A DNA stretch of 43,275 nucleotides, taken from NCBI GenBank assembly GCA_036523395.1, contig DATDEH010000084.1, positions 1 to 43,275 on the forward strand, written 5' to 3'. Of the stretch, positions 1 to 22,095 are shown in pieces. Source of the DNA: Candidatus Limnocylindria bacterium (GTDB lineage: Bacteria > Chloroflexota > Limnocylindria > P2-11E). The stretch's first letter is position 1. Every line of letters begins with the position of its first letter. Made by a program: the position numbers and the translations under genes. The notes beneath the pieces were generated by a model. It made no database searches. It was given only the letters and a program-made list of their open reading frames with translations, and was not told the origin of the DNA.

Positions 1-1066
<1,066 letters not shown>

Positions 1067-1102
1067 AGTCACTTCCTTAGCCGGCACGCCGAGCAGGTCT
1101 TC

Positions 1103-1999
1103 TCACTTCTTGACCGCGTGACCGCCGAATTGATTGCGCAACGCGGCCGCAACCTTCATCGCGTACGAGTCCTCTTGTCGTGAGGTGAATCGCGCGAAGA
1201 GCGAGTGTGCAAGCACCGTTGCCGGCACGTCGTGGGCGATCGCTTCCTGGATCGTCCAGCGCCCTTCGCCTGAATCTGCGACCCACCCTTTGATGTTTGC
1301 CAGATCGGGGCCCTCCTGTTCGAACGCGCGCTCCGCGAGTTCGAGGAGCCACGACCGAACCACGCTGCCCTGCATCCACACGCTCGCGACGCGCTTCATG
1401 TCGATCTGGAATTCGCTCGCATGGATCAGCTCGAAGCCCTCGCCGTAGGCCTGCATCATCCCGTACTCGATCCCGTTGTGGACCATCTTGATGAAGTGGC
1501 CCGCGCCGCTCTTCCCGAAATGCGCCCACCCGTTCGGCGGCGCGAGCGTGTCGAGCGCAGGCTTCACGATGGCAACCGCGCGCGCTTCCCCGCCGACCAT
1601 CATGCAGTAGCCGACCTCGAGCCCCCAGATGCCTCCGGAGACTCCGATGTCGAGATAGTCAAGGCCGAGCGCCTTGTACTTCTCCGCGCGGCGCATCGAG
1701 TCACGGAAGTACGAGTTGCCGCCGTCGACCAGGACGTCGCCCTTCGTTGCGTATTTCGCGAACTCGTCGAGTGTGTGGTCGGTGACGTCGCCCGAGGGCA
1801 CCATCGACCAGAGGACGCGTGGCGGCTTCAGCTGCTTCGCCATCTCCTCGATCGAGTAGGCGCCCGCTGCGCCCTCGGCCTTCGCTTCATCGACCGGGCC
1901 CGGGCTGCGATTTCCCGCGACAACGCGGTGCCCGCCGCGGACGAGCCGCGTGACCATGTTGCCGCCCATGCGGCCCAGGCCGTAGAGCCCGATCTCCAT
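1103..1999 (-). CDS. gnd: 6-phosphogluconate dehydrogenase, decarboxylating, short form
   Basis: Converts 6-phosphogluconate to ribulose-5-phosphate, CO2 and NAD(P)H. The 298 residues fit the short (about 300 aa) Gnd class rather than the roughly 470 aa enterobacterial form. Visible motifs are the Rossmann fingerprint GLGRMGGNM at residues 8-16, the substrate loop GGNSYFRDS, DIGVSGGIWG, and the catalytic segment FIKMVHNGIEYGMMQAYGEG holding the family Lys and Glu. The C-terminus carries the RFTSRQED segment typical of this class. A GGGGGTGA ribosome-binding site precedes the ATG at 1999. It is transcribed divergently from transketolase and lies directly before zwf. Confidence 0.97.
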   Translation of the reverse strand: MEIGLYGLGRMGGNMVTRLVRGGHRVVAGNRSPGPVDEAKAEGAAGAYSIEEMAKQLKPPRVLWSMVPSGDVTDHTLDEFAKYATKGDVLVDGGNSYFRDSMRRAEKYKALGLDYLDIGVSGGIWGLEVGYCMMVGGEARAVAIVKPALDTLAPPNGWAHFGKSGAGHFIKMVHNGIEYGMMQAYGEGFELIHASEFQIDMKRVASVWMQGSVVRSWLLELAERAFEQEGPDLANIKGWVADSGEGRWTIQEAIAHDVPATVLAHSLFARFTSRQEDSYAMKVAAALRNQFGGHAVKK

Positions 2000-2053
2000 G
2001 CGTCACCCCCGTGGTGCGACCGAGGATATTCGGTCCGGAGGGTGTTCCTGCGG

Positions 2054-2059
2054 TACCGT
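2054..2059 (+). promoter_or_regulatory. Candidate -10 element of the transketolase gene
   Basis: TACCGT ends 7 bases before the preferred GTG start at 2067 and there is no ribosome-binding site. This is the spacing expected for a leaderless transcript. I see no clear -35 element. The call rests on the same arrangement recurring in front of other genes in this window. Confidence 0.3.
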
Positions 2060-2066
2060 GTGGGTC

Positions 2067-3926
2067 GTGACCACCGTGAGCGAGGCCGCAACGCGCCTCG
2101 ATCTGTACCGTTCGCTGGCTCGTCAACTGCGCGCCGACAGCATCCGCTGTTCGACGGCCGCCGGGTCGGGCCACCCGACATCATCGCTATCCGCGGCTGA
2201 CCTTGTGGCGGTGTTGCTCGCCGGCCATCTTCGCTACGACTTCGAGCGGCCGGACACGCTCGCGAACGATCACCTCATCTTTTCCAAGGGACACGCGTCG
2301 CCGCTGGTCTACGCGATGTTCCGCGCCGCCGGCGCGATCGATGATGCGGAGCTGATGACGTTCCGGAAGTTCGGCTCGCGCCTCGAGGGCCATCCCACGC
2401 CGATCCTTCCCTGGGTCGACGTCGCGACCGGCTCCCTCGGGCAGGGTCTGCCGATCGGCGTCGGCGTCGCGCTCGCCGGCAAGCGTCTCCTCAAGGCGCC
2501 GTTCCACGTCTGGGTCGTCGTGGGCGACAGCGAGTCGGCCGAGGGCTCGATCTGGGAGGCATTCGATCTCGCCGGTCATGAGGGCCTCGAGAACGTCACC
2601 GCGATCCTCGATATCAATCGCCTCGGGCAGCGTGGCCCGACCGAGCTCGAGTGGAATACGGAGGCGTACGCCACGCGCGTCCGGGCGTTCGGCTGGAACG
2701 CGATCGTGATCGACGGCCACGATCTCGCGCAGGTCGACGACGCGCTCGGTCGCGCCCGCGTGTCGGCGCGTCCGACGGCGATCGTCGCCCGCACGGTGAA
2801 GGGCAAAGGCGTCTCGTTCCTCGAGGACAAACCCGGCTGGCACGGCAAGGCTCTCGACGCGCAGCAGGCGAAACAGGCCCTCGCGGAGATCGGCGACGAG
2901 CCGTCGCGCGTGTTCGCGGTACCGAGCCCACCGGCCTGGCGACCCGCGCCGGTTCCCCCGCCAAAGGCGCCGGACCTGAAGCGCTACACCGACCCCATCG
3001 CGACGCGCAAGGCGTACGGCGAGGCGATCGCTGCGCTCGGCGCTGCGCGCGCGGACGTCGTCGCGCTGGACGCCGAGGTGAGCAACTCGACGCACGCGGA
3101 GGATTTCAAGAAGACCGCTCCCGATCGGTTCTTCGAGATGTACATCGCGGAGCAACGCATGGTCGCGGTCGCCGTGGGGATGCAGGTCGTGGGTTTCGTG
3201 CCGTTCGCGTCGACGTTCGCGGCGTTCCTCACGCGTGCGTATGACTTCATCCGCATGGCGGCGATCTCGCGCGCGGCCATCCGTCTCTCAGGCTCACACG
3301 CCGGCGTGTCGATCGGCGAGGACGGTCCCTCGCAGATGGCGCTCGAGGATCTCGCGATGATGCGCGCGGTGCACGGCAGCACCGTGCTGTATCCCTGCGA
3401 TGGCAATCAGACCGCGAAGCTCGTCGCGGCGATGGCGGACCTGCGGGGCATCTCGTATATCCGGACGACGCGCGCGAACACTCCGGTCCTGTATCGACCC
3501 GAGGAGGAGTTCCCGATCGGCGGAAGCCGCGTCGTGCGCGGCGGCGATGCGGACGATCGCGTCACGGTCGTCGCCGCCGGCATCACCGTGCACGAGAGCC
3601 TGAAGGCCGCGGACGAGCTGGCCAAGGGTGGCATCAAGATCCGGGTCATCGACGCGTACTCGGTGAAGCCGCTCGACGCGGGTGGCATCGCGAGGGCGGT
3701 GCGCGAGACTGGTGGAAGGCTTCTCATCGTCGAGGACCACTGGCCGGAGGGCGGCCTCGGCGACGCCGCCGTATCGGGCCTCGTCTCACTCGGGGTGAAG
3801 GACATCGTCCTGCGGCATCTCGCGGTGCGCGACATGCCAACGTCGGGAAAGCCTGCCGAGCTCCTCGAGGCCGCCGGGATCGCCGCACGCGACATCGCCG
3901 CGGCGGTGCGCGCTCTGCTCGACTGA
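2067..3926 (+). CDS. tkt: Transketolase
   Basis: Thiamine-diphosphate enzyme of the non-oxidative pentose phosphate pathway, moving two-carbon ketol units between sugar phosphates. About 619 residues on one chain. The N-terminal pyrophosphate domain has SGHPTSSLSAAD, FSKGHASPLVYAMF, GSLGQGLPIGVG and the ThDP/metal motif GDSESAEGSIWEA; the pyrimidine domain starts near DPIATRKAYGEA and contains AEQRMVAVAVGM with the catalytic Glu and GSHAGVSIGEDGPSQMALED; the C-terminal domain follows. GDSESAEG replaces the commoner GDGELxEG but keeps the pattern. An ATG at 1998 would overlap the divergent gnd start and add a low-complexity leader, so I prefer the GTG at 2067; GTG 2076 is also possible. The next gene starts 2 bases after the stop. 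Confidence 0.96.
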   Translation: MTTVSEAATRLDLYRSLARQLRADSIRCSTAAGSGHPTSSLSAADLVAVLLAGHLRYDFERPDTLANDHLIFSKGHASPLVYAMFRAAGAIDDAELMTFRKFGSRLEGHPTPILPWVDVATGSLGQGLPIGVGVALAGKRLLKAPFHVWVVVGDSESAEGSIWEAFDLAGHEGLENVTAILDINRLGQRGPTELEWNTEAYATRVRAFGWNAIVIDGHDLAQVDDALGRARVSARPTAIVARTVKGKGVSFLEDKPGWHGKALDAQQAKQALAEIGDEPSRVFAVPSPPAWRPAPVPPPKAPDLKRYTDPIATRKAYGEAIAALGAARADVVALDAEVSNSTHAEDFKKTAPDRFFEMYIAEQRMVAVAVGMQVVGFVPFASTFAAFLTRAYDFIRMAAISRAAIRLSGSHAGVSIGEDGPSQMALEDLAMMRAVHGSTVLYPCDGNQTAKLVAAMADLRGISYIRTTRANTPVLYRPEEEFPIGGSRVVRGGDADDRVTVVAAGITVHESLKAADELAKGGIKIRVIDAYSVKPLDAGGIARAVRETGGRLLIVEDHWPEGGLGDAAVSGLVSLGVKDIVLRHLAVRDMPTSGKPAELLEAAGIAARDIAAAVRALLD

Positions 3927-3928
3927 TC

Positions 3929-4948
3929 GTGGCCCGCAAGATATCGCTGACGGCGCTGTCCCTCGTCGCGATCGCTTCGGTGTGCCTCGTCGATCTCCTC
4001 ACCGGCCCCGACATCGGCTTCTCGCTCTTCTACCTCATCCCGGTCGTCGTGACGGCCTGGTACCTAGGCCGCGGTCCGGGTGTGGTCGTCGCGGTCTCGG
4101 GGGCCCTCGCCTGGCTCTTCGCGGACACGATGAACCGCGACGCCGTATCGCTCCCGGCCTCGACATGGAACGCATTCACGCGCTTGGTCATCTTCATCGC
4201 CATCGCGCTGCTGCTCGATCGGCAGCGTACGAATACCGCGCGTCTTGCCAGGATCGACCGCCAGCGCCAGGACTTCCTCCGCGTTCTCGACTACGAGCTG
4301 CCGCGGCCGATCGAGGCGATCGCCGAGCTCGCGAAGAAGCTCGACCGCAACACGCCGGCCCAGTCCGAGGAGCACAACACGGTGCAGGAGCTGCAGCGAC
4401 GCGCGCAGGAGCTGCAGTTCCTCGCGCGCGACTTCGTATCGCTCGGGAGACTGCAGAGCGAACGGCTGCTGCTGACTCGAAGACAGTCCGATCTCAATGA
4501 CATCGTTCGCGATGCCGTGCGCGCCATCGTGGACAAGCAACGCGTGATCATCACCCTCGGCGCGGAGGCGCCCATCGTCGATGCCGACGTCGATCGCCTG
4601 CGGCAGGCGATCGAGAGCGTGATCCGGAGCGCGCTGCAGCACTCGACCGAGTACGTGAACGTGGCCGTTCGGGTCGATGCGCAGTCCGCATGGGTCGATG
4701 TCAGTGACCGTTCGCGCGTGCCGCTGCGCGTCGACGATCGGGCTCTCTTCGAGGATCCCGAACGCGCTGACGACCCGCGCGCGGTCGCGGTGGCCGACCG
4801 CTTTCTCGGCCTCGAGCTCGCGCGGCTCCTCATGGAGGCGAACGGTGGATCGCTCGACATCGAGAGTCCGTCGACGCTCGGCTCGCTCGTCCGACTCCGT
4901 CTTCCGCGGACCACACGCCCGCCGATCATCCGTCCGGCGACCGCTTAG
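3929..4948 (+). CDS. Membrane sensor-kinase-like protein with degenerate catalytic motifs
   Basis: 339 residues, GTG start 2 bases after the transketolase stop. Residues 8-97 hold about four hydrophobic segments of the small integral-membrane sensor type (FSLFYLIPVVVTAWYLGR). Residues 110-175 look like a dimerisation/phosphoacceptor helix pair and 190-327 like a GHKL ATPase domain. The key residues are altered. Where kinases have SHELRTP, this has DYELPRP, with Tyr122 in place of the phosphoacceptor His. The N-box reads VIRSALQHS, with Ser234 where Asn is expected. The G1 motif is DRSR rather than DxGxG. Only the last motif (LGLELARLLMEANGGSLDIES) is well kept. I infer a pseudokinase or scaffold, not an active autokinase. 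Its position between transketolase and a sugar kinase suggests a link to carbon metabolism. Confidence 0.8.
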   Translation: MARKISLTALSLVAIASVCLVDLLTGPDIGFSLFYLIPVVVTAWYLGRGPGVVVAVSGALAWLFADTMNRDAVSLPASTWNAFTRLVIFIAIALLLDRQRTNTARLARIDRQRQDFLRVLDYELPRPIEAIAELAKKLDRNTPAQSEEHNTVQELQRRAQELQFLARDFVSLGRLQSERLLLTRRQSDLNDIVRDAVRAIVDKQRVIITLGAEAPIVDADVDRLRQAIESVIRSALQHSTEYVNVAVRVDAQSAWVDVSDRSRVPLRVDDRALFEDPERADDPRAVAVADRFLGLELARLLMEANGGSLDIESPSTLGSLVRLRLPRTTRPPIIRPATA

Positions 4949-4953
4949 TCGCG

Positions 4954-4959
4954 CATACT
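4954..4959 (+). promoter_or_regulatory. Candidate -10 element of the FGGY kinase gene
   Basis: CATACT ends 6 bases before the GTG start at 4966 and lies in the 17-base gap after the kinase-like gene. No ribosome-binding site is visible, so a leaderless internal promoter is plausible. Confidence 0.3.
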
Positions 4960-4965
4960 CGCGCC

Positions 4966-6462
4966 GTGCTGCGCGAGCCGCTCGCGATCCCGCTGCGCGA
5001 AGCGCGCGCGCCGCTCGTGCTCGCGCTCGATATCGGCACGTCGGGGCTGCGTGTCTTCCTCTTCGACGTGCGTGGACGGCCGATCGCTCCGTTCATCGCG
5101 CACGCCGACCGGCCGGTGCGGACCTCGGCCGATGGCGAGGCCACGGTGGATGCGGAGGAGCGCGTGGGCGCAGCGTTCCGCGCGATCGACACCGTCCTGT
5201 CGGGCGCCGGTCGCCGCGCCGGCGAGATCGCGGCCGTTGCCACATCGACGTTCTGGCACAGCCTCGTCGGTGTTGGCGCGGATGGCCGTCCGACAACACG
5301 AGTGCTCACCTGGGCAGACACGCGTGCACGGAGCGCGGCCGCGATGCTGCGCCGCGAAGTCGATCCGGTCGCGACGCATGCGCGCACCGGTTGCGTCCTC
5401 CACGCGTCGTATCTGCCAGCGAAGCTACGTTGGCTTCGTGAGAACGACGGAGATGCGTACGCACGCACGAAATGGTGGATGTCGCTCGGCGAGTACCTGT
5501 ATCTGCGGGTCCTCGGTGCGCGACGAGCCGGACACGGAATGGCCTCCGCTACCGGGCTCTACGACCAGCGCTCGCGCGGCTGGGATCGGCCGCTGCTTTC
5601 GCACCTCGTCGTCGGCGAGGAGACGCTGTCGCCGATCGACGACGCACCCCTTACGGCGATGCTCCCTGCCTTCGCACGACGGTGGCCCGCTCTGGCGAAC
5701 GCGAAGTGGGTGCCCGCAGTCGGCGACGGGGCGTGCTCGAACGTGGGAGCGGGAGCGGTCGGTCGCGACACCGCGTCGCTCTTCCTGGGGACGTCCGGCG
5801 CGATGCGCGTGGTCTACGCGACCGACGATCCGCCGACGATCCCAGGCGGATGGACGTACCACCTCGACGCTTCGCGAGTCGTTGCCGGCGGCGCGCTGTC
5901 GAACGGCGGCAACGTGCTTCGCTGGATCGCCGATGTGTTCCCGGGCGTCGATGTCCCTCGCGCCCTGCGGCGCGCGTCAGCGGACGGACCGCTCATCGCG
6001 CTTCCGCTGCTGGCCGGCGATCGCAGCCCGACGTGGAATGACGCGGCGCGCGCCGCGGTGGCCGGCATCGGTCTCGGAACGACCGCGGACGACGTCGTGC
6101 GCGCGATGGTCGAGGGCGTCGCGTATCGCGTGGCGCGGCTGTGGGACGTCACGAGCCGCGCGCTGCCGGGCATCGAACGAGTCATCGCGACGGGCGGCAC
6201 GCTGCTCGCGTTCCCATGGCTCATGCAGCTCTTCGCCGACGCCATCGATCGCCCGTTGCTCATGAGCGGGGCCGGAGAGGGTTCGGCGCGCGGCGCCGTG
6301 ATCGCCGCGCTCGAGCGGATCGGCGCGGTGCCCGACCTCGCCGCTGTGCGCTCGCCGCTCGGACGAACGTTCCGCCCGAGGCCTGCTGCGCACGCTCGAC
6401 TTCGCGCCGGAACGGAGCGTCAGCGGCAGTTGGAGGAGGCACTCGGCCCGCTGATGTCATGA
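4966..6462 (+). CDS. FGGY-family carbohydrate kinase, probably gluconokinase
   Basis: Phosphorylates a sugar or sugar acid with ATP. 498 residues, the usual FGGY length. The N-terminal actin-like lobe opens with LALDIGTSGLRVFLFD, followed by RTGCVLHASYLPAKLRW and SLGEYLYLRVLG. The second lobe has VPAVGDGACSNVGAGAVG, LFLGTSGAMR, the GGALSNGGNVLRW segment seen in gluconokinases, and IATGGTLLAFPWLMQLFADA near the C-terminus. Gluconokinase activity would make 6-phosphogluconate, the substrate of the neighbouring gnd, which favours that specificity over xylulokinase or glycerol kinase. Specificity remains inferred. GTG start. Confidence 0.88.
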   Translation: MLREPLAIPLREARAPLVLALDIGTSGLRVFLFDVRGRPIAPFIAHADRPVRTSADGEATVDAEERVGAAFRAIDTVLSGAGRRAGEIAAVATSTFWHSLVGVGADGRPTTRVLTWADTRARSAAAMLRREVDPVATHARTGCVLHASYLPAKLRWLRENDGDAYARTKWWMSLGEYLYLRVLGARRAGHGMASATGLYDQRSRGWDRPLLSHLVVGEETLSPIDDAPLTAMLPAFARRWPALANAKWVPAVGDGACSNVGAGAVGRDTASLFLGTSGAMRVVYATDDPPTIPGGWTYHLDASRVVAGGALSNGGNVLRWIADVFPGVDVPRALRRASADGPLIALPLLAGDRSPTWNDAARAAVAGIGLGTTADDVVRAMVEGVAYRVARLWDVTSRALPGIERVIATGGTLLAFPWLMQLFADAIDRPLLMSGAGEGSARGAVIAALERIGAVPDLAAVRSPLGRTFRPRPAAHARLRAGTERQRQLEEALGPLMS

Positions 6463-6496
6463 TTGACAGTGCCGTAGCTCAGAAGGGGAGAACACT

Positions 6497-7060
6497 TTGG
6501 AGATCCTGATCCCGCTCATCATCGTCGCGGTCATCGTCGTATTCGTCATCAGCCTCTACAACCGTCTGGTCACGATGCGCCAGCGCGTGCGCGAAGCGTG
6601 GGCCGACATCGACGTCCAGCTGAAGCGGCGCTGGGACCTGATCCCCAACTTGATCGAGACCGTGAAGGGATACGCCGCGCACGAGCGACAGACATTCGAT
6701 TCCGTAACGCAGGCGCGTGCCGCCGCGATCACAGCGGCGCAGTCCGGATCGCCCGAGCAGCGAGCACAGGCGGAGACCGCTCTCGGCGCCGCTCTGGTGA
6801 ATCTGCGCGCGGTCGCTGAGGCATACCCGCAACTCCAAGCGGTGCAGGAGTTCAAGGATCTCTCGGAGAACCTGAGGGACACCGAGGACAAGATCGCGTT
6901 CGCGCGCCGGTTCTACAACGGGAATGTCCGCGACTACAACACCGCGATCCAATCCGTGCCGACCAACATCCTCGCTGGGATGTTCGGCTTCACCGCCGAG
7001 CAGTATTTCGAGATGGCCGACCCGGCCCAGCGTGAAGTCCCGAAGGTGTCGTTCAGCTAG
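6497..7060 (+). CDS. lemA: LemA family protein
   Basis: 187 residues. One N-terminal membrane segment (residues 3-19) with a very short outside portion is followed by a long helical domain with the LemA signature: YNRLVTMRQRVREAW, DIDVQLKRRWDLIPNL, and later FARRFYNGNVRDYN. The start is a rare TTG at 6497, fixed by the strong AGAAGGGGAG site 6 bases upstream; no in-frame ATG or GTG comes before the conserved region. It lies 5 bases before htpX. lemA-htpX pairing is common in bacteria, and LemA is generally seen as a membrane partner in envelope stress; its biochemical role is not known. Confidence 0.95.
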   Translation: MEILIPLIIVAVIVVFVISLYNRLVTMRQRVREAWADIDVQLKRRWDLIPNLIETVKGYAAHERQTFDSVTQARAAAITAAQSGSPEQRAQAETALGAALVNLRAVAEAYPQLQAVQEFKDLSENLRDTEDKIAFARRFYNGNVRDYNTAIQSVPTNILAGMFGFTAEQYFEMADPAQREVPKVSFS

Positions 7061-7065
7061 CCGGA

Positions 7066-7980
7066 GTGGCCGCTCCGCAGTCCCGGCTCAACATCTACGA
7101 CGCCGCCGCCGCGAACCGCTGGCGCACCGTCGCGCTCATCACGGTGTTCACAGGCATCCTCATCGCCCTCGGCTACGTCGTCGGTGAGGTGTTCACGCCG
7201 GGAGGCGGCGTCGCGATGATCCCCGCGGCGCTCGGTCTCTCCGGCGTTTCCGCCACGGCGTCGTACTTCGCCGGCGACAAGCTCGTCCTCGCACAGAGTC
7301 AGGCACGTGAGCTGGCGCCCGGGGAGGAGCCGCAGCTGCGGAACGTTGTCGAGACCCTTTCGATCGGACTCGGCATCCCTCCACCGCGTATCTATGTGAT
7401 CGATGACACGGCGCCGAACGCGTTCGCCACGGGCCGCGACCCCAAGCACGCCTCCATCGCGGTGACGCGCGGGTTGATCGACAAGCTTGACCGCACTGAG
7501 CTGGAAGGCGTGATCGCACATGAGCTCTCGCACGTCGGCAATCACGACATTCGCGTGATGCTCCTTGTGACCGTCCTCGTGGGGACCATCGCGCTCCTTT
7601 CGGACTGGATGTTCCGATCCTTCGCGTGGGGTGGCGGACGCCGCGGTCGCGACCGTGGCGGCGGCGGGATCATCCTGATCATCGCGATCGCGCTCGCGAT
7701 CCTCACGCCGATCATCGCGACCTTGATCCAGCTCGCCGTCTCCAGGCAGCGCGAATACCTAGCCGACGCGTCAGGCGCGCTGCTCACGCGGTTTCCGCCG
7801 GGCCTCGCGAGCGCGCTGCGCAAGATCGCCGCGGACAAAGAGGCGCTCGAGGTGGCCAACAAGGCGACCGCATCCCTCTACTTCGCGAACCCCCTGAAGG
7901 ACGCGCCGCGCGCGATGGATGGGCTCTTCGATACGCACCCGCCGATCGCGGAGCGCATCCGCCGTCTCGAGGCGATGTGA
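7066..7980 (+). CDS. htpX: HtpX-type membrane zinc metalloprotease
   Basis: M48-family membrane endopeptidase that degrades misfolded membrane proteins. 304 residues. Two N-terminal hydrophobic segments (about 20-40 and 47-68) precede the catalytic domain. The zinc motif HELSH is at residues 152-156, with Glu153 catalytic, and the third ligand Glu is in QREYLADASGA near residue 228. Another hydrophobic pair lies at about 164-215 around a Gly/Arg-rich loop (WGGGRRGRDRGGGG). The C-terminus DTHPPIAERIRRLEAM is typical of the family. GTG start 5 bases after lemA. The last codons overlap the GTG of the next gene, so translation is probably coupled. Confidence 0.95.
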   Translation: MAAPQSRLNIYDAAAANRWRTVALITVFTGILIALGYVVGEVFTPGGGVAMIPAALGLSGVSATASYFAGDKLVLAQSQARELAPGEEPQLRNVVETLSIGLGIPPPRIYVIDDTAPNAFATGRDPKHASIAVTRGLIDKLDRTELEGVIAHELSHVGNHDIRVMLLVTVLVGTIALLSDWMFRSFAWGGGRRGRDRGGGGIILIIAIALAILTPIIATLIQLAVSRQREYLADASGALLTRFPPGLASALRKIAADKEALEVANKATASLYFANPLKDAPRAMDGLFDTHPPIAERIRRLEAM

Positions 7981-9107
7981 CGGCGACGACGCCGCCTGGC
8001 GACGGCGACTCGCCGAAGCCGCCGGAGTTCATCGGCCCGCAGGCACCCGATGGGCCGCGCGCTCCCGACGGGCCGCGCACGAGCAGCACTGCGCTCCCGC
8101 TCAGCTCCGCTGGGATCATCGCCGTTCTGCTCGTTGTCGCGGCGATCGGCGGAGGCCTCGCGGTCGGCACCATCGCGCGACCGAGTCCCTCGCCCCGTCC
8201 CACGCCAACTCCGTCGCCGGCTCCGACGCCGACACCTCAGCCGACGACCGACCCGGCCGTGTTTCGGCAGACGCTCTCGAGTGGCTGCGCGACGGAGCAG
8301 GGACTCTGGGTCGTCTCGAACGGCGGCGGGCTCGTTCGCTACAACGGAAAGGACTGGGTCCAAGTGGACGGCACGCTGCGCTCGCTCACCCAGACGTCGT
8401 GCGACGCGGGGACGTTGTACGCGGTCGGTCCGGTCGGTGCGGTGCTCATCCTCGACGACCGCGCGCGCCAGATCCAATCGTTCGACGTGACGCTCGAGGA
8501 TCTGCGGGGCGTTGCCGCGATGCCCGAAGGGGCGATGGTCGCGGGCACGCACGGAACGGTGCTGTTGCTGTCGGGCGGGGCCTGGCAGCCGTACGCACGC
8601 GGCCTCGAAGAGGACCTGAACGCGCTCGTCGTCTTCGAGCTGCAGTCTGCGTGGGCGGTGGGCTCGCAGGGCATCAGTTATCGCTTGGAAGCGGCGGGCT
8701 GGCGCTCGATACCGACGGGGGCCACGGTCGAGCTGCGAGCAGTGTCCGCAACGAGCCCGCAGAGCGCGATCGCTGCCGGCGACGAAGGGACCCTTCTCGT
8801 CTTCGACGGTTCGTGGAAGCAGGTGGAGACCGGAGTGACTGCGAACCTGCGCTCGATCGGGCGACTTGGCAGCGCCGAATGGATCGTGGGCGATGCCGGG
8901 ACCGTGCTCATCCTTGACGCGGCCGGAGGCGATCACACAGTGCCAGGCATCAGGCCGCCGACCAAGTTCGATCTCGGGACGACGTGTGATCTGCGCAACG
9001 TGTTCGTAAGCGGCCAAGACGTTTGGATCATCGGCGGCCGCGGTGGGGTGTCGGGAGTCTGGCGCATCCGCGGCGGCAAGGTCGCCGAGCGCTGGGGAGA
9101 GTGCTGA
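7977..9107 (+). CDS. Membrane-anchored beta-propeller protein (YCF48/photosystem-stability-factor-like repeats)
   Basis: 376 residues from the GTG that overlaps the htpX stop (GTGA). The longer reading into htpX in this frame is not the gene. Residues 1-40 are a Pro-rich cytoplasmic leader, about 43-64 one membrane helix (IIAVLLVVAAIGGGLAVG), and about 68-90 a Pro/Ser/Thr linker of alternating P residues. The rest is an exported domain of repeated 40-45 residue units with patterns such as LRGVAAMPEGAMVAGTHGTV, LNALVVFELQSAWAVGSQG, LRAVSATSPQSAIAAGDEGT and LRSIGRLGSAEWIVGDAGTV. That is a YCF48-like propeller with about six blades. Two Cys-containing blades (SGCATE, TSCDAG, TTCDLR) could be disulfide-linked outside the cell. 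Fold is likely; ligand unknown. Confidence 0.85.
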   Translation: MTATTPPGDGDSPKPPEFIGPQAPDGPRAPDGPRTSSTALPLSSAGIIAVLLVVAAIGGGLAVGTIARPSPSPRPTPTPSPAPTPTPQPTTDPAVFRQTLSSGCATEQGLWVVSNGGGLVRYNGKDWVQVDGTLRSLTQTSCDAGTLYAVGPVGAVLILDDRARQIQSFDVTLEDLRGVAAMPEGAMVAGTHGTVLLLSGGAWQPYARGLEEDLNALVVFELQSAWAVGSQGISYRLEAAGWRSIPTGATVELRAVSATSPQSAIAAGDEGTLLVFDGSWKQVETGVTANLRSIGRLGSAEWIVGDAGTVLILDAAGGDHTVPGIRPPTKFDLGTTCDLRNVFVSGQDVWIIGGRGGVSGVWRIRGGKVAERWGEC

Positions 9108-9191
9108 CGATCGTTGCCCGACTCTCGTTCGCGGGTGTGCTCGCGGTCTCGCCACATGGTCCGTCTGTCGCTCCTCACTCCGCGCCGCTCC

Positions 9192-9197
9192 TAAACT
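9192..9197 (+). promoter_or_regulatory. Candidate -10 element of the CoA-transferase operon
   Basis: TAAACT ends 6 bases before the ATG at 9204, with no ribosome-binding site between, consistent with a leaderless mRNA. The 96-base gap after the propeller gene contains nothing else that I recognise. Confidence 0.4.
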
Positions 9198-9203
9198 TCG
9201 CGG

Positions 9204-10400
9204 ATGCCTCAGCCTCCGCTGGATGGGATCCGTGTTCTCGAGGTCGGTAACTACATGGCGGGTCCGTTCTGTGGCATGCAACTCGCGGATCTCGGAGCCG
9301 ACGTCATCAAGATCGAAGATCCGCGCGGCGGCGACCTGTCGCGTCGGCTCGAGCCGATCGTGGACGGTGAGAGCGGCAACTTCGTGCGGCTCAACCGCGG
9401 CAAGCGGAGCGTCGCCCTCGACCTGAAGCAGGAGGCGGGCGCCGGCATCTTCCGCCGCCTTGCGGAGCGCGCCGACGTCATCGTCGAGAACCTGCGGCCG
9501 GGCACGATGCGCGACCTCGGCCTCGAGCCACAGGGCCTCCTCGACGCAAACCCTCGTCTCGTGTACGCGGCGGTGACCGGCTGGGGTCTCGATGGGCCAT
9601 ACGCCGATCGTCCGGCACTCGACATCATCATCCAGGCGATGAGCGGCCTCATGAGCGTCACCGGCGAGGAGGGCGGCGCGCCGGTCAAGGTCGGCGTGTC
9701 GATCTCCGACCTCGTCGCTGGCCTCTACGCGACCATCGCCATCCTCGCTGCGCTCAGCGTCCGTCAGCGCGACGGCCGCGGGCAGCTCGTCGACATCTCG
9801 ATGTACGAATCGTCGGTGTCGCTCGCGGTCTGGGAGGCCGGACAGTTCTTCACGACCGGCGAGATCCCTCGCGCCGCGGGCTCCGCGCACAAGCTCATCG
9901 GCCCGTACCAGGCGGTGCGTGCGGCCGACAGGCACTTCGTGCTCGGGGCGACCACCGCGCCGAACTGGCATGGGTTCTGTGCGGCGCTCGGGCTCGAGCG
10001 AATCGAGCGAGACCCGCGCTTCGCGGACGGGACGCTCCGCCGCCGCAACAAGGCAGAGCTCATCCCGCTCATCGAAGAGGTCACCGCCACGCGCCCGGCA
10101 GCGCATTGGCTTTCGGTGCTGCGAGCGGCGGGCGTTCCGTGTGGCGAGATCCAGGACTACAGCCAGGTCTTCACCGACCCGCACCTGAGGGAGCGCGGCT
10201 TCTTCGTCGATCTGCCTCACGCGAAACTCGGTACGGTGCGCGCGCTCGGGACGCCGCTGCGTCTGCGCTCTTCGCCGGCGCGCATCGAGCGCGCGGGCCC
10301 AATCCTGGGCCAACACTCGGCTGAGGTGCTGCGCGAGATCGGTCATTCCGAGGATGAGGTGCGCGCGTTCGTCGCGCGTGGCACCGTGGCGGCGGCATGA
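9204..10400 (+). CDS. Family III CoA-transferase (CaiB/BaiF/formyl-CoA transferase family)
   Basis: Transfers CoA between organic acids through an enzyme-bound aspartyl anhydride. 398 residues, the normal length. The N-terminus LDGIRVLEVGNYMAGPFCGM and LGADVIKIEDPRGGD are the family's CoA-binding start. The catalytic Asp falls at residue 169 in VGVSISDLVAGLYATI, the position used in formyl-CoA transferase. VNPRLVYA-like and GWGLDGPYADRPALD segments are also present. The stop overlaps the next gene (ATGA), a crotonase, so the pair probably handles one acyl-CoA pathway, as in carnitine or short branched acid metabolism. The substrates cannot be read from sequence. Confidence 0.93.
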   Translation: MPQPPLDGIRVLEVGNYMAGPFCGMQLADLGADVIKIEDPRGGDLSRRLEPIVDGESGNFVRLNRGKRSVALDLKQEAGAGIFRRLAERADVIVENLRPGTMRDLGLEPQGLLDANPRLVYAAVTGWGLDGPYADRPALDIIIQAMSGLMSVTGEEGGAPVKVGVSISDLVAGLYATIAILAALSVRQRDGRGQLVDISMYESSVSLAVWEAGQFFTTGEIPRAAGSAHKLIGPYQAVRAADRHFVLGATTAPNWHGFCAALGLERIERDPRFADGTLRRRNKAELIPLIEEVTATRPAAHWLSVLRAAGVPCGEIQDYSQVFTDPHLRERGFFVDLPHAKLGTVRALGTPLRLRSSPARIERAGPILGQHSAEVLREIGHSEDEVRAFVARGTVAAA

Positions 10401-16414: not shown

Positions 16415-17542
16415 CTACGAGACTCGTACCGCCGCCTGGCGCCCCTGGATCACCTCTTCGTAGACGCCGACGAGCTGAGCGGTGACATGCGACCAGTCGA
16501 ATTCGGGCGCGCGCCTCGCGCCCGCCTCTCCAAGTCGTACGCGCAGAGCAGGGTCGCAGATGAGGCGCTCCAGCGCCGCCGCGATGGCCTCGGGATCCTT
16601 TGGTTCGACCAAGAGCCCGGAAACATTCCGCTGTACGACACGCTTGTAGCCGTGGATGTCGCTCGCCACGACCGGCAGGCCTGCGGCCATCGCCTCGAGC
16701 AGCACGATGCCGAACGACTCCTGTCCGGTCGACGGAGCGCAGAAGATGTCGGCGGTCTTGTAGAAGCGCGCCTTGTCGATGTCGTCGACGCGGCCGGCGA
16801 ACAGCACGTCCTGCAGATGGTTGTCGTGCACGAATCGTCGTAGCTTCCCGAGCTGCGGCCCCCAGTTACAGATGATCAGTCGCGTGTCCGGATACCTGGG
16901 TTTGAGCTTCGCATACGCCTGCAACAGATACATCGCGCCCTTGCGCGGCTCGAGCCTTCCGACGAAGAGGATGTTCGCCTTGCCGTCCCTGAACTCTGGG
17001 AACGGCCGCGCATTCGCGTAGAAGTCGACGTCGACGCCGTTCGGGATGATCCGGTAGTTGCCCGGGAAGTACGCCGAGATGAAATGCCGAGCGGCGCTCG
17101 ACACGCAGATCTTCTCGTCGAGCTTGTTCATGTAGCGGTCGAGCGCGATGCGGCCGGCCCAGTACGACACGGAGAACCCGCCGAAGGCGTGGAATGTCGC
17201 GACGTGGGGGCACTTCGCGGAATCGAGGATCTGGAACGAGAGGAACGGCACGAACGGCTCGTGGTGATGGATGATGTCGAACTTCTCGCGTTCCAGCATG
17301 CGCGATACGAGCCACTCGAGGCGCAGTGAAAGCGTCACGCGACCGATGCTTCCGTTGAAAGGGACTGCGATCGCCTGACCCACCTGGATCACGTCGCGCG
17401 CGGGCGGGTCGTCGCCCCACGGCGCGGTGATGATGCGCACCTCATGTCCCATGTCGCGGAGGCGCTCGTAGGTCTCGCGGATGTGCGCGTTCGCGCCACC
17501 GGGCCGCGGATACGCATACGGGGACACGATCCCGATCTTCAT
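16415..17542 (-). CDS. pimA: PimA-like phosphatidylinositol alpha-mannosyltransferase (GT4)
   Basis: GT-B glycosyltransferase expected to transfer mannose from GDP-mannose to phosphatidylinositol at the inner membrane face. 375 residues. The N-terminal domain has IGIVSPYAYPRPGGANAH, VPFNGSIGRV and DIIHHHEPFVPFLSF; the C-terminal domain has ILFVGRLEPRKG and CAPSTGQESFGIVLLEAMAAG with the family E(x7)E motif. These segments match what I recall of mycobacterial PimA (IPYNGSVARL, HLHEPNAPSLS, CAPNTGGESFGIVL) better than other GT4 enzymes. Start: the ATG at 17542 overlaps the PHP gene stop (ATGA); the longer frame to 17599 is not real. It closes the phosphatidylinositol cluster. Another hexose acceptor remains possible. 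Confidence 0.88.
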   Translation of the reverse strand: MKIGIVSPYAYPRPGGANAHIRETYERLRDMGHEVRIITAPWGDDPPARDVIQVGQAIAVPFNGSIGRVTLSLRLEWLVSRMLEREKFDIIHHHEPFVPFLSFQILDSAKCPHVATFHAFGGFSVSYWAGRIALDRYMNKLDEKICVSSAARHFISAYFPGNYRIIPNGVDVDFYANARPFPEFRDGKANILFVGRLEPRKGAMYLLQAYAKLKPRYPDTRLIICNWGPQLGKLRRFVHDNHLQDVLFAGRVDDIDKARFYKTADIFCAPSTGQESFGIVLLEAMAAGLPVVASDIHGYKRVVQRNVSGLLVEPKDPEAIAAALERLICDPALRVRLGEAGARRAPEFDWSHVTAQLVGVYEEVIQGRQAAVRVS

Positions 17543-18261
17543 TTTTTCCGGATCCGTCTCCTCGCGCGCTTCACTGGATCGCGCACCATCGAACGCCACT
17601 GCTGCAAGGCGACCCCGTCCAGATGCTCGCCGAGCGTCCAGTGTCGTCCGTCCGGCCGCGTCGCGCGATCGGCGATGGCCCGCCGCAGGGCGGCACTGTC
17701 TGTTCCAGCGAACTCGGTCCAGGTCGTACCGACCAGGTTCGCGTGGTGGGCGTCGCTCGAACCGGTCTCGGCGACGTGCAGCACCTTCTCGTTGAGCCAG
17801 ACCGAGCGCGCGGCTCGGACCCGGCCCGCGTAGGACGGATTGCGCGTCTCGATCCCGTCGATATGCACGAGCGGATCGGCCGCGGCGGCCAGCGCGCGGA
17901 GTGCCCCCTCACCGACCGAGAACGTGAGGTAGGAGAGCGGGTGCGGCACGATCGCCACGCCACCGGCGTGATGGATGCGCGACACCGTGTCGGCGACCGA
18001 GGCGAACATCTGGATCTCCTCTTCGATCCAGAGCGCGAGCAGGTGACCCGAGCGCGTCGTGACCTCGACGCCCGGGACGATCTCCACCGGGCTCGACCGG
18101 CGTGCCGCGATGTCGCGCAGCAGGAAGGCGCCGCGGATGTCGTCGTGGTCGGTGAGCGCGATGATGTCGAGGCCCGCGCGCTCCGCCGCGTCGAGGATCG
18201 CCTCCGGCGATGCGAGTCCATCACCAAGGTCGGAGTGCAGCTGGAGGTCAGCGCGTCCCAC
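17539..18261 (-). CDS. PHP-domain metal-dependent phosphoesterase
   Basis: 240 residues of the PHP fold (trpH/RnmV-like). Metal-site motifs are in order: LHSD near residue 8, LTDHDD near 35, PGVEVTT near 66, HPLSY near 110 and GSSDAHH near 175. The GTG at 18261 overlaps the acyltransferase end by 14 bases, and the ATGA overlap with the mannosyltransferase follows; the longer frame upstream is an artefact. PHP proteins hydrolyse phosphomonoesters or phosphodiesters, some acting on nucleotides. Embedded in a phosphatidylinositol cluster, it could dephosphorylate phosphatidylinositol phosphate or inositol phosphate; this is inference from context only. Confidence 0.9.
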   Translation of the reverse strand: MGRADLQLHSDLGDGLASPEAILDAAERAGLDIIALTDHDDIRGAFLLRDIAARRSSPVEIVPGVEVTTRSGHLLALWIEEEIQMFASVADTVSRIHHAGGVAIVPHPLSYLTFSVGEGALRALAAAADPLVHIDGIETRNPSYAGRVRAARSVWLNEKVLHVAETGSSDAHHANLVGTTWTEFAGTDSAALRRAIADRATRPDGRHWTLGEHLDGVALQQWRSMVRDPVKRARRRIRKK

Positions 18262-19093
18262 GCCAGAAGTCCTCGAACACGGTCCACTGCTCTGGAGCGC
18301 TCCGAACGTAGCGCTCGAGCACGCGCGCGAATCGCTGCACGCCCTCGCGAACGTCGGCGGAGCGGTCTCCCGTATTCGGGATCTCGAGCGGTGGCTCGAA
18401 CCGCGCTGTGAGCACGCCGTCGCCGCGCCCGGCGAACGACGGCACGAGCGGCGCGCCGGTGCGCATCGACAGCACGACCGCCGCGGACGGCAAGAGCGCC
18501 GGCCGTCCGAAGAACTCGACCCGCTCGCCAACGCCGGTGACCGCGCGGTCCGCGAGGATGCCCAGCACTTTGCCCTCGCGGAGGAAGCGGAAGATGCCCA
18601 GCGCCGAGTCCGTATTGATGAGCTGCAGGCCGGCGCCGCCGCGCGCTCGGTTCACTGAGCGCTGGAATTCAGACGTCGCGACCTCTACGGGCAGCGCGAC
18701 CGGGTATCCGTGCGCGAGCACGATCTGTCCCACGAAAGATACCGGCCCCAGGTGAGCGCTGGCCAGGATCACGCCTTTTCCCTGTTCGTACGCGTGGGAC
18801 ACATGTTCCCAACCATCGGCCCGCACCTCGGCAAGGAGCTTCTTCGGATCCGTACTCGGGATCGAGAAGATCTCGACATAGTTGCGCGCCTGCTCGACGA
18901 ACACGCGACGCACAGCGCCGTTGCCGCTCCGTCCCGGTGAGATGACGGCGAGGTTGCCGCGGACCGCGCGCCTCGCGCCGGGCGCCGCGAGAAAGGCAAG
19001 CGTGCCGATGACCTCGGCGAACGGGCCGACGACCCCCCTCGGCATGAGGGGCAGGGTGCGCTCCGCCGCGCGGGAGAGCGCTCCCGTCAGCAT
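18248..19093 (-). CDS. LpxL/PatA-type lysophospholipid acyltransferase with altered active-site motif
   Basis: 281 residues from the ATG at 19093, 2 bases after the stop of the other acyltransferase. The fold matches the LpxL/HtrB/PatA family: an N-terminal amphipathic/hydrophobic region (VVGPFAEVIGTLAFLAA), RGNLAVI, the motif region GVILASAHLGPVSF, then VLGILADRAVTGVGERVEFFGRPALLPSAAVVL, typical of the family. The family needs H(x4)D/E; here His114 is followed by Ser119. It may therefore be weakly active, use another carboxylate or act as a partner of the intact paralogue. In mycobacteria PatA acylates the mannose of PIM. Confidence 0.88.
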   Translation of the reverse strand: MLTGALSRAAERTLPLMPRGVVGPFAEVIGTLAFLAAPGARRAVRGNLAVISPGRSGNGAVRRVFVEQARNYVEIFSIPSTDPKKLLAEVRADGWEHVSHAYEQGKGVILASAHLGPVSFVGQIVLAHGYPVALPVEVATSEFQRSVNRARGGAGLQLINTDSALGIFRFLREGKVLGILADRAVTGVGERVEFFGRPALLPSAAVVLSMRTGAPLVPSFAGRGDGVLTARFEPPLEIPNTGDRSADVREGVQRFARVLERYVRSAPEQWTVFEDFWRGTR

Positions 19094-19095
19094 CG

Positions 19096-20007
19096 CTACG
19101 TCGCGGCGTCCAGTTGCGCCGGCCACATCGGGCGGAAGATGTACCACTGGTCGGGCTCGGGTCGCATGAGCCCCTCGAGCGCGTGCACGATCGCCTGCGT
19201 CGCGCGTTCGAGGTCGCTCGCGGCTTGTTTCGTCCGCGCGACGAAGATCGGTGGCACGGCCACACCTTTGAATGAATTGTCGCGGCCACGCGTCACCGCC
19301 GCGACGATGATCGGCGCCCCGGATACGCGGGCGAGCGCGGCGGCGATGGTCGGGAACGCGGTGCGCACCCCGAAGAACGTCGCCTCGACGTTGTCGAGCT
19401 CATGGGCGCGCGGTCCGAGATCCATCATGAAACCGACCATCTCGTTCCGGCGCAGCGCGGCGAGCACGCGGCGCGTCGCACCCTCGGGTGGAAGGATGAC
19501 GACGTTCTTGTGCTCGCGGTTCGTCACGAGGAAGTCCATGAGCCGCGTGTTCTCCAGCTCGTCAGCGACGACGGTGAGCGGGATCTCCTGTGCGATGCGC
19601 GCGCCACCGATCTCGAAGTTGCCGAAGTGGGCCGAGACGAAGATGATCCCGCGCCCGTGGTCGCGAGCTGCTTGCAGATGAGCCTGCGACGTCGGATCGA
19701 TCTTCACGAGCTCGTGCAGCTCGGCGTGACCCATCGATGGGAACCGCATGATCTCGGTGAGGTACTTGCCGAAGTTGCGGAACGCGCGTCGGGATACCTG
19801 GGCCACCTCGCGGTCCCCGGCCGGTCGCCCCAGGACGACGGCGAAGTTGCTCTTGGTGATCTCGCGTCTGCGGCGCCAGAGGAGGTAGGCGAACTCGCCG
19901 CCGACCACGGCGCCCGAGTACACGAGTCGAGCCGGAAGGTGCTGCACCAGGGTGGCAGCGACGCGCCAGGACCAGTAGAGGCCATCGAAGGGAACGCGCA
20001 GCCGCAC
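19096..20007 (-). CDS. LpxL/PatA-type acyltransferase, intact H(x4)E motif
   Basis: 303 residues. The GTG at 20007 begins inside the inositol-phosphate synthase stop (TAGTG), so the two are translationally coupled; the longer upstream frame is an artefact. The first 50 residues hold a hydrophobic helix and WRRRREITKSNFAVVLG. The catalytic motif is intact: SAHFGNFEIGG with His127 and Glu132. GFMMDLGPRAHELDNVEATFFGVRTAFPTIAAALA is the usual downstream block, and the C-terminus PDQWYIFRPMWP matches the family end. It probably transfers an acyl chain from acyl-CoA or acyl-ACP to a mannosylated phosphatidylinositol, as PatA does; a link to other glycolipids cannot be ruled out. Confidence 0.9.
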   Translation of the reverse strand: MRLRVPFDGLYWSWRVAATLVQHLPARLVYSGAVVGGEFAYLLWRRRREITKSNFAVVLGRPAGDREVAQVSRRAFRNFGKYLTEIMRFPSMGHAELHELVKIDPTSQAHLQAARDHGRGIIFVSAHFGNFEIGGARIAQEIPLTVVADELENTRLMDFLVTNREHKNVVILPPEGATRRVLAALRRNEMVGFMMDLGPRAHELDNVEATFFGVRTAFPTIAAALARVSGAPIIVAAVTRGRDNSFKGVAVPPIFVARTKQAASDLERATQAIVHALEGLMRPEPDQWYIFRPMWPAQLDAAT

Positions 20008-21143
20008 TAGGCCTTTCCCGACAGCGTCGTCTGGTCGGTGCCCTTGATGTACGACTCGACACCCTCGCGCGCCTTGTCGTCGTGGATCTGACGCGGCGGC
20101 GACTTCATGAAGTACGCCGACGGCGCCACGATCGTGCCGCCGAGGCCGCGGTCGAGCGCGAGCTTGCAGCAGCGGATCGCGTCGATCACGACGCCCGCGC
20201 TGTTCGGCGAGTCCCACACCTCGAGCTTGACCTCGACGTTGAGTGGCACGTCGCCGAAGGTCGTGCCTTCCATGCGGATGTAGCACCACTTCCGGTCGAG
20301 CAGCCATGGCACGTAGTCGGACGGACCAACGTGGACATCATCTGGGTCCAGAGGGTAGTCGAGCATGCTTGTCACCGCGTTCGTCTTGCTGATCTTTTTC
20401 GATTCGAGACGCTCGCGCTCGAGCATGTTCAGGAAGTCGGTGTTCCCGCCGAAGTTCAGCTGGTACGTTCGATCGAGACGCACCCCGCGGTCCATGAAGA
20501 GTCGAGTGAGCACGCGGTGCGTGATGGTCGCGCCGACCTGCGACTTGATGTCGTCGCCGATGATCGGTAGCCCCTTGGCTGCGAAGCGTTTCTGCCAGTA
20601 CGGCTCGCGGGCGATGAAGACCGGGATGCAGTTGATGTACGCGCAGCCCGCCTCGAGGACCTGCTCCACGTACCACTTCGTGGCCTCCTCGCTGCCGACG
20701 GGAAGGTAGGAGACGACCACGTCAGTCTTCGTGTCCCGCAGGATCTTCACGATGTCCGCCGTCTCGCCGGGCGCCTTGATGACCACTTTCGCCAGGTACT
20801 TGCCGATGCCGTCGTGCGTCATGCCCCGGCTGACCTTCACACCCGTCTTGGGGACGTCCGCGAACCGATACGTGTTGTTCGGCTTCGCGTAGATCGCATC
20901 GGCGAGGTCTTTGCCGACCTTGTTCTTGTCGACGTCGAATGCGGCGACGAACTCGACGTCTCGGATGTGATAGCCGGCGAGTTCGACGTGCATGATCCCG
21001 GGGATCGGGTCTCCGGACTTGGCGTTGCGGTAGTAGTGGACGCCCTGCACGAGCGAGCTCGCGCAGTTGCCGACTCCGATGATCGCGACGCGGATCTTGC
21101 GACCACCGGTGCGGCCGCCGGTCGTTCGTTTCTTTGCAGGCAT
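20007..21143 (-). CDS. ino1: Myo-inositol-1-phosphate (inositol-3-phosphate) synthase
   Basis: NAD-dependent isomerisation of glucose-6-phosphate to inositol phosphate, the first committed step of inositol lipid synthesis. 378 residues, the short actinobacterial/archaeal type. The Rossmann motif [16 protein letters not shown] is at about residues 19-34. [43 protein letters not shown] and [17 protein letters not shown] are diagnostic of the family, and the active-site Lys residues lie in GDDIKSQ and ESKKISK. The N-terminus is a short basic tail ([15 protein letters not shown]). It lies 8 bases after the phosphatidyltransferase gene. Confidence 0.97.
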
Positions 21144-21151
21144 CTGTTATT

Positions 21152-21802
21152 TCAACCTTTCTTTTCATCGAGCACTGTCGCCATATGGGCGATGCGCTGG
21201 ATGACGGTGACGGTCGCGAGGAACGCGGCGACCAGAACGGCCGCTGCGAAGAGCTGAGGGTTGCCGGTGGCGGCCCAGGCCGCCACGCCGAAGAGATAGA
21301 TCGCGATACGCGCCTCACGCGGCGCGAGGCCTACGCTCGCCCGTACGCCGAGCGACTCGGCCTTGGCGCGGATGTAGCTCACCACGAAGGACGCGACGAG
21401 CAGCAGGAGGCCGCCCCAGAACAGGATGTCCGCCGTGCCGAGCGACACGAAGAAGGGATCTAACGGTTCGAACATCGAGGCCCCAAGCTGGACCGCAGCG
21501 ATCGCGAGCGCCGCGTCGGAGAGACGGTCGAGCGTCGAGTCAAGGAACGCGCCGAAGGGGGTGCCACCGCCGGCCGCGCGCGCGATCTGACCGTCGAGCG
21601 TGTCGCTGAGCGTCCCGACGAGCAAGACCCCGAGCGCGGGCCAGGGCTGGCCGGTCGACAGCAGCGCGGCGCCAGCGACCGTGATGAGGAAGCCCAGCAC
21701 CGTGACCGCGTTGGCGCTGACCCCGAGCGCATGCAACCAGCGCGCGACGGGCGCGATGCCGCCACGCGTCGTCTTCGCGAGACGATCCGGGACGATGCTC
21801 AC
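21152..21802 (-). CDS. CDP-alcohol phosphatidyltransferase, probable phosphatidylinositol(-phosphate) synthase
   Basis: 216 residues, the normal size. The CDP-binding motif is complete: Asp67, Asp70, Gly71, Ala74, Arg75, Gly84, Asp88 and Asp92 occupy every family position. About six membrane helices follow. The GGGTPFGAFLDSTLDRLSDA stretch, SYIRAKAE and the final VIQRI resemble mycobacterial PgsA1 (phosphatidylinositol-phosphate synthase) more than glycerophosphate PgsA, and inositol-phosphate synthase is next door. I infer that it condenses CDP-diacylglycerol with inositol phosphate. The GTG at 21802 overlaps the regulator stop (GTGA); a longer frame to 21940 is the shadow of the regulator. 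Confidence 0.88.
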   Translation of the reverse strand: MSIVPDRLAKTTRGGIAPVARWLHALGVSANAVTVLGFLITVAGAALLSTGQPWPALGVLLVGTLSDTLDGQIARAAGGGTPFGAFLDSTLDRLSDAALAIAAVQLGASMFEPLDPFFVSLGTADILFWGGLLLLVASFVVSYIRAKAESLGVRASVGLAPREARIAIYLFGVAAWAATGNPQLFAAAVLVAAFLATVTVIQRIAHMATVLDEKKG

Positions 21803-22095
21803 GACACTCGGTTCATGAGCGCGCGGAAGCTGCGCTCCTGCATTTGCGTGAAGTGCTGTCGATCGAAGGAGCAGCGCACCTCCCGACCAACGCGCTCGGT
21901 CCGCACGATGCCGGCTCGCGTGAGGCGCCGGAGGTGCCACGACATGAGCGGCGCGCTGATCCGCAGACGGCGTACGAGCTCGGAGACCGGGAACTCACCT
22001 TCGGTCGCAAGGATCTGCACGACCCGCAGGCGCGTGACATCACCGAGCGCGCGATGGAATGCCTTGAGCTCGCGAAGGTACGACTGACTGAGCAT
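21799..22095 (-). CDS. ArsR-family winged-helix regulator heading the inositol-lipid operon
   Basis: 98 residues. The helix-turn-helix runs through ALGDVTRLRVVQILATEGEFPVSELVRRLRISAPLMSWHLRRLTRAGIV, followed by the beta-wing RTERVGREVRCSFD. There are no CxC or other ArsR metal-binding cysteines apart from one Cys in the wing, so a metal sensor is unlikely. GGGGAG lies just before the ATG. Its stop overlaps the phosphatidyltransferase start, making it the first gene of the cluster, and an AT-rich near-palindrome lies upstream. It probably autoregulates the operon; the signal is unknown. Confidence 0.9.
   Translation of the reverse strand: MLSQSYLRELKAFHRALGDVTRLRVVQILATEGEFPVSELVRRLRISAPLMSWHLRRLTRAGIVRTERVGREVRCSFDRQHFTQMQERSFRALMNRVS

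Follow-up and report, generated by a model that had tools for sequence, protein, structure and literature searches.

The gene between transketolase and an FGGY sugar kinase in the 43,275-nucleotide stretch of DNA analyzed here (the window, which is contig C84 of genome G000) encodes a real pseudo-histidine kinase that is under selection. It is a protein of a known kind in an unusual place, the transketolase (tkt) operon of a soil Chloroflexota.

Domain architecture and catalytic residues

The protein (P0001; 3929..4948, + strand; GTG start, 339 aa) consists of a DUF4118 membrane domain (residues 9-109; 3953..4255, +; Pfam PF13493, 34.5 bits, cut-off 28.4), a DHp region, and a HATPase_c (CA) domain that lacks the ATP-binding signature (residues 220-328; 4586..4912, +; PF02518), in this order. 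Hydrophobic stretches are found within residues 1-47 and 77-96. The HATPase_c fold is still recognizable by sequence (31.5 bits, cut-off 26.4), and the HisKA match falls below the Pfam cut-off (13.5 bits compared with 26.9). A reading of the sequence alone had suggested that the membrane sensor and the histidine kinase fold are retained, and the two domains above their cut-offs bear this out. Predicted structures (two sets of four sequences each) have mean pLDDT values of 52.5 and 52.7, too low for reading the pocket; the order of their secondary structure elements is compatible with a membrane part made of helices, then a DHp hairpin, then an alpha/beta domain.

Catalytic residues were placed by phmmer comparison with solved sensor histidine kinases (5uht and relatives) and by alignment with the relatives described below. 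In the phmmer alignments, D-Y122-E-L-P-R-P pairs with S-H-E-L-R-T-P, R233-S234 with N-N of the N-box, and D260-R261-S262 with D-N-G of the G1 box. The phosphoacceptor His position of catalytic HisKA-type kinases is occupied by Tyr122 (codon TAC, 4292..4294, +). Among the residues that serve ATP-Mg, the N-box Asn is replaced by Ser234 (4628..4630, +; residue table and phmmer alignment), and the G1 box, D-x-G-x-G in 18 intact relatives, is lost, with D260-R-S-R-V264 in its place (4706..4720, +). The G2 box, G-x-G-L-G-L in the same 18 relatives, is lost in part (D290-R-F-L-G-L295; 4796..4813, +). For Tyr122, Ser234, and the lost G1 box, the alignment agrees with the sequence-only reading down to the residue numbers. 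The phosphatase motif residue (T or N four positions after His) is missing as well, an uninformative absence because 17 of the 18 intact relatives also lack it.

The closest named records are soil metagenome-assembled genomes labelled Chloroflexi bacterium, CF_39 and CF_64, whose orthologues are 87% (L056:6001-7020, in G004) and 86% (L057:5992-7017, in G002) identical to the window protein. Both share the N-box and G1 alterations of the window protein exactly and lack the N-box Asn. The proposed replacement of the phosphoacceptor His by Tyr122 stands for the window protein but not as a conserved feature: of the two tkt-adjacent orthologues, L057 has Tyr (TAC) and L056 has the canonical His (CAC), so position 122 is free to change. 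A recent mutation or sequencing error at Tyr122 is ruled out by the Tyr of L057, which comes from a separate assembly. The two Tyr-containing rows are not sisters in the phylogenetic tree, and a tree that unites them passes the AU test (p-AU 0.373), so the history may comprise a single H-to-Y change, two such changes, or a reversal. Judging from these alignments, the defining feature of the protein is the loss of the ATP site, not Tyr122.

A clade of dead kinases in one Chloroflexota order

We aligned 31 rows that came from 29 genomes of the order and from one Acidobacteria record (L058), after dropping L027 and L028 (doubles of L056 and L057), a frameshifted copy from G006 (L124), and the genome's other kinases. 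In the maximum-likelihood tree, a single branch with 100/99 support, recovered in 100% of 200 bootstrap trees, splits 13 rows, the window protein among them, from 18; the tree is unrooted and contains several long rows, and the branching order within the 13 is unsettled. According to the residue table, the N-box Asn and the first and second G1 glycines (the places of G262 and G264) are each present in 0/13 clade members and in 18/18 intact relatives. The G1 Asp (D260) is kept in 4/13 and the middle G2 glycine (the place of G292) in 2/13, compared with 18/18 for both among the relatives, and the lid and G2 stretch (290-294) is gapped in six clade members. At the phosphoacceptor position, four of the 13 members have H, two have Y, and seven have R; all 18 relatives have H. 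With 11 of them belonging to a single genus (g5), these 18 rows are not independent witnesses. Residues that are conserved in the clade and missing from the intact relatives are P127 and F164 (13/13) and P125, Q176, and E296 (10/13 each); E123 is kept in 12 of 13 members.

Because the ATP-site residues are gone from all 13 members while His survives in four, which are spread across the tkt-linked group, G003, and G006/G012, loss of the pocket looks older. The H, Y, and R states at position 122 need at least four changes on the tree. Under parsimony on this unrooted tree, the simplest account would be that the ATP site was lost first and that the phosphoacceptor His drifted afterwards.

The 13 members are spread over 10 of the 29 genomes of the order. 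The clade's own profile retrieves them at E-values no worse than 1e-101 and its next hit in the order at 2.4e-69, a gap that is partly built in because the profile contains the same 13 sequences; about a dozen weaker places in the order (1e-22 to 1e-54) lie outside the 13/18 classification. Among 400 genomes sampled evenly across the phylum, with up to five candidates scored per genome, a match at 1e-30 or better was found in at least seven, all in the host's order. Of the 12 clade members scanned, 5 had no Pfam match at the thresholds applied, so pseudokinases of this sort are easily missed.

No common partner gene emerges across the clade neighborhoods. L041 and L043 adjoin a ZIP transporter and an Mrp/ParA-like gene, L049 and L050 a DUF885 gene (in L075, together with a luciferase-like gene), L054 an aminotransferase and a C39-like protein, and L036 a PBP gene and a 129-aa receiver, and an M23-peptidase-type gene is located near L052 and L055.

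Arg-type clade members in G004 (L075:6057-7448, -) and G002 (L076:5477-6868, +) are fused to an N-terminal DUF1232 domain (PF06803; 43.1 and 44.5 bits, respectively). In the dead-kinase copy from G006 (L124:about 4100-5142, +), the membrane part and DHp-CA lie in different frames, which reflects either a broken gene or an assembly error. The window's genome encodes another DUF4118 protein with kinase similarity (G000:C72:7147-8637, -; L006, L084; DUF4118, 103.3 bits), a possible intact counterpart of the window pseudokinase.

Pentose phosphate setting and age of the tkt link

The gene directly follows tkt (transketolase; 1998..3926, +; NCBIfam NF004559, 932 bits, cut-off 488), which possibly starts at 2058, given that relatives match from about residue 20-30. 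Divergent from tkt are gnd (6-phosphogluconate dehydrogenase family; 1103..1999, -; PF03446 and PF00393) and zwf (glucose-6-phosphate dehydrogenase, cut by the contig end; 2..1066, -; PF00479 and PF02781). On the other side lies the FGGY sugar kinase gene (4966..6462, +), for which the best NCBIfam models are gluconokinase (191.8 bits) and xylulokinase (161.1 bits), both under their cut-offs, followed by LemA and an HtpX-like M48 peptidase. With zwf, gnd, tkt, and the FGGY kinase gene surrounding the pseudokinase gene, the description of this locus as a pentose phosphate operon is fair. The spacing given for it is also right: two bases separate the tkt stop (3926) from the GTG (3929), and 17 bases separate the stop of the gene (4948) from the FGGY start (4966). 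The tkt junction measures two bases in L056 as well and is an ATGA overlap in L057, where an opcA-like gene comes after zwf. The lack of a nearby response regulator extends to the whole 43-kb contig: all 63 receiver (PF00072) matches listed for the genome lie on other contigs. A scan of positions 1000-9300 was uninformative, with no promoter-like sites and one terminator-like site, inside FGGY and below shuffles.

Elsewhere in the window, a glycosyltransferase, two lipid-A-type acyltransferase-family proteins, inositol-1-phosphate synthase, and a CDP-alcohol phosphatidyltransferase are encoded in a row (16415-21940, -), which we take to resemble a phosphatidylinositol mannoside-like pathway. 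A LuxR-type (GerE) regulator cut by the contig end (42040-43275, -) has no receiver domain in the part present.

The gene order tkt, pseudokinase, FGGY is the same in the window, L056, and L057, and its recurrence in two more genomes, together with the purifying selection described below, makes the observation more than chance. A tkt gene was found in 26 of the 29 genomes of the order at an E-value of 1e-150 or better, with gnd divergent from it in 22 of the 26, and the stretch behind tkt could be assessed in 25 (G023, which ends 35 bases on, was left out). There, the pseudokinase follows tkt in 3 genomes, FGGY directly in 5, FGGY after 677 bases in 1, and LemA directly in 13; in 3 genomes, none of the three was found within 1.5 kb. 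Among the five genomes of the genus, the gene is present at the tkt locus in three, and tkt is directly followed by FGGY in G001 and by LemA in G003. The tkt link is limited and recent because the pseudokinase follows tkt in only 3 of the 25 assessable genomes; thus, the gene entered, or was lost around, a pre-existing tkt-FGGY pair, and the link is confined to part of one genus. The view of the protein as a noncatalytic sensor tied to sugar metabolism is borne out as regards the loss of catalysis and the tight gene packing, but the tie is young and local.

The stretch between the PBP and ornithine-cyclodeaminase genes contains an intact DUF4118 kinase and a single-domain receiver in G008 (L083:5107-6554, -), a dead kinase and a single-domain receiver, receiver first, in G003 (L066:6024-7462, -), and neither kinase nor receiver in G000, G002, and G004 (L121, L122, and L123). 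A move of the gene from this locus to the tkt operon was considered and rejected. The window protein is 35-38% identical to the G003 protein, compared with 72-76% identity for tkt and the flanking genes. A tree with the window and G003 proteins as one clade, picked after the tree had been seen, was rejected (p-AU 0.0066), and relocation is also disfavored by the order of kinase and receiver, which differs between L083 and L066.

Selection on the gene and its domains

Values of dN/dS were obtained by the NG86 method for the window gene, L056, and L057 (the trio) and are given for the pairs window/L056, window/L057, and L056/L057, in this order. The whole gene yields 0.135, 0.130, and 0.083, next to 0.121, 0.094, and 0.086 for tkt and 0.149, 0.119, and 0.143 for FGGY, and its reading frame has stayed open in the three genomes, between which dS is about 0.4-0.65. 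Rather than decaying, the gene is under purifying selection.

The values are 0.061, 0.039, and 0.052 for the CA domain, 0.141, 0.158, and 0.192 for DHp, and 0.207, 0.246, and 0.044 for the membrane part. In both comparisons that involve the window gene, constraint is strongest on the dead ATPase domain, with Fisher p-values of 0.035 and 0.0038 for the amino-acid differences in the transmembrane part against those in CA; L056/L057 is the exception, with the membrane part slightly lower than CA (0.044 vs 0.052). For the other dead pairs, CA and DHp are at 0.085 and 0.200 (L052/L053) and at 0.052 and 0.036 (L049/L050), DHp being the lowest domain in the latter pair. In seven intact pairs, dN/dS of DHp ranges from 0.031 to 0.124 and is lower than that of CA in five. 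CA is lower than DHp in four of five dead pairs compared with two of seven intact pairs, which are few and not independent; this is suggestive of a shift of constraint from DHp to CA in the dead kinases. By its features, with the histidine kinase fold kept, the catalytic residues lost, and the gene under selection, the protein classifies as a pseudo-histidine kinase.

Comparison with known kinases and pseudokinases

A contrast is offered by the intact DUF4118 kinases of the same order (rows within L029-L040, L042, and L044-L048) and the one from the Acidobacteria metagenome-assembled genome (L058), which have the same domain order and are 30-36% identical to the window protein. All 18 keep His, the N-box Asn, D-x-G-x-G, and G-x-G-x-G; the window protein does not. 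Nor is it a KdpD, as DUF4118 starts at residue 9, Pfam finds no N-terminal KdpD domain, and the NCBIfam KdpD model scores 42 bits against a cut-off of 1123.

A noncatalytic sensor is not unusual as such, contrary to what had been supposed, the kind being already known from DivL, RetS, and RocA. When the clade profile was compared with solved structures, DivL (4q20, E 1.1e-14) and RetS (6dk8, E 9.4e-14; 6dk7) were within the ten best. DivL orthologues have a PAS-containing sensor and a DivK/CckA setting; by Pfam domain content, the N-terminal half of the window protein is DUF4118. Caulobacter DivL is described as having Tyr at the His position and no kinase or phosphatase activity, binding ATP weakly, and working with DivK and CckA, with a CA domain reported to be dispensable (PMC4211667). 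The window protein resembles DivL in its Tyr at the phosphoacceptor position and in the kept fold. It differs from DivL in the variability of this Tyr within its clade, in an ATP site that, judging by sequence, is lost altogether, in its DUF4118 sensor, in the absence of a nearby receiver, and in a CA domain that is under the strongest constraint when the window gene is compared with its orthologues.

Pseudomonas RetS, a degenerate HATPase without G-boxes, is reported to inhibit GacS (PMC5992135). Loss of the G-boxes and kinship with membrane sensor kinases are shared features; however, RetS, as described there, keeps an H-box with HExxT and receiver domains, whereas in the window's clade the His is variable and both the T and the receiver are absent. 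RocA of group A Streptococcus is described as a membrane pseudokinase that interacts with CovS and functions without its CA domain when overexpressed (PMC7028121, PMC6193603). By these descriptions, not by sequence, it is similar in having several transmembrane helices and no catalytic residues and in modulating a separate sensor kinase, but its sensor and phylum are different.

Among the HisKA domains sampled in a 2025 minireview, His is stated to be missing in 0.9% (722 of 76,471; PMC12632262). Our literature search, to which subscription papers were mostly inaccessible, returned no paper that was, by title and abstract, on Chloroflexi histidine-kinase pseudokinases, and the papers that it matched for DUF4118 mention the domain once each. 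Pseudoenzymes in two-component systems have reportedly been reviewed by Collins and Childers (2021).

Proposed mode of action and alternatives

Since a family of dead kinases has been kept intact by evolution, the protein probably works by touching other proteins instead of transferring phosphate. The explanation that we favor, with due reserve, is a membrane-anchored pseudo-histidine kinase of the DivL, RetS, and RocA type that contacts a two-component partner encoded elsewhere. With the ATP-Mg residues lost, the protein would neither bind ATP productively nor autophosphorylate; it would dimerize through the DHp helices and act by protein-protein contact, with the CA domain serving as a binding surface. 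As with the three precedents, the likeliest partner would be an active histidine kinase or else a receiver, with its gene at another place in the genome. The window's genome has the 63 listed receiver matches and 26 places with kinase-like similarity to the pseudokinase, of which one is the gene itself, one is a separate DUF4118 piece, and 24 are others. With the gene lodged between tkt and the sugar kinase, the amount of protein would track pentose phosphate gene expression.

The precedents may not carry over because the CA domain, dispensable in DivL and RocA, is the best-conserved part here in two of the three trio pairs. For the same reason, a direct metabolic role is kept as the main rival, although we consider it unlikely. 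Here, the dead CA domain would bind transketolase, the FGGY kinase, or a sugar phosphate without a two-component partner and so link enzymes of the pentose phosphate pathway with the membrane or a signal. The position of the gene, with tight junctions behind tkt in three genomes (two bases, two bases, and overlapping), the contig devoid of receivers, and the constraint on CA rather than DHp in the window's two comparisons, set against lower DHp values in most intact pairs, are consistent with such a role. Of the 25 assessable genomes, however, only 3 have the arrangement, and 5 have tkt next to FGGY with no pseudokinase between them; other clade members lie beside ZIP transporter, Mrp/ParA-like, DUF885, luciferase-like, M23 peptidase, or aminotransferase genes, and the one in G003 adjoins a single-domain receiver. 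It is similarly doubtful that, in this genus, the tkt-sugar kinase operon took up a dead histidine kinase whose CA domain came to bind a sugar phosphate or an enzyme of the pentose phosphate pathway, so that flux would be set by a membrane signal through contact, without phosphotransfer.

Phosphorylation in trans, in which the ATP-incapable protein would have its DHp phosphorylated by an active kinase in a heterodimer, on His where this is kept, fits the His of four clade members, L056 included, and the Glu at 123 in 12 of 13. We consider it improbable given the Tyr or Arg at that position in the window protein, L057, and seven others and the weaker constraint on DHp than on CA in the trio. 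Still less credible is an unusual active kinase with another mode of ATP binding and Tyr or a different residue as the acceptor: D260 of G1 and one G2 glycine (G294) are left in the trio and the CA domain is strongly conserved, but the N-box Asn and both G1 glycines are gone from all 13 members, six lack the lid and G2 stretch, and position 122 varies as H, Y, or R. Decay of a gene inserted into the operon and carried by its neighbors, which the lost catalytic residues, the absence of the gene from the tkt locus in two of the five genus genomes, and the frameshifted G006 copy elsewhere might suggest, is highly improbable, being contradicted by the open frame in three genomes at appreciable dS and by dN/dS of 0.083-0.135.

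Implications

Bacterial pseudo-histidine kinases are known mostly as single cases; here, they form a small clade in one Chloroflexota order, to which intact relatives in the same genomes provide a ready contrast. In this clade, the ATP site appears to have been lost before the phosphoacceptor, and selection still acts on the dead domain. If its location in the operon matters for function, the protein would couple sensing to the pentose phosphate pathway through contact alone; if a two-component receptor has in fact been rewired onto central metabolism, the move of constraint from DHp to CA would be a mark left by the rewiring.
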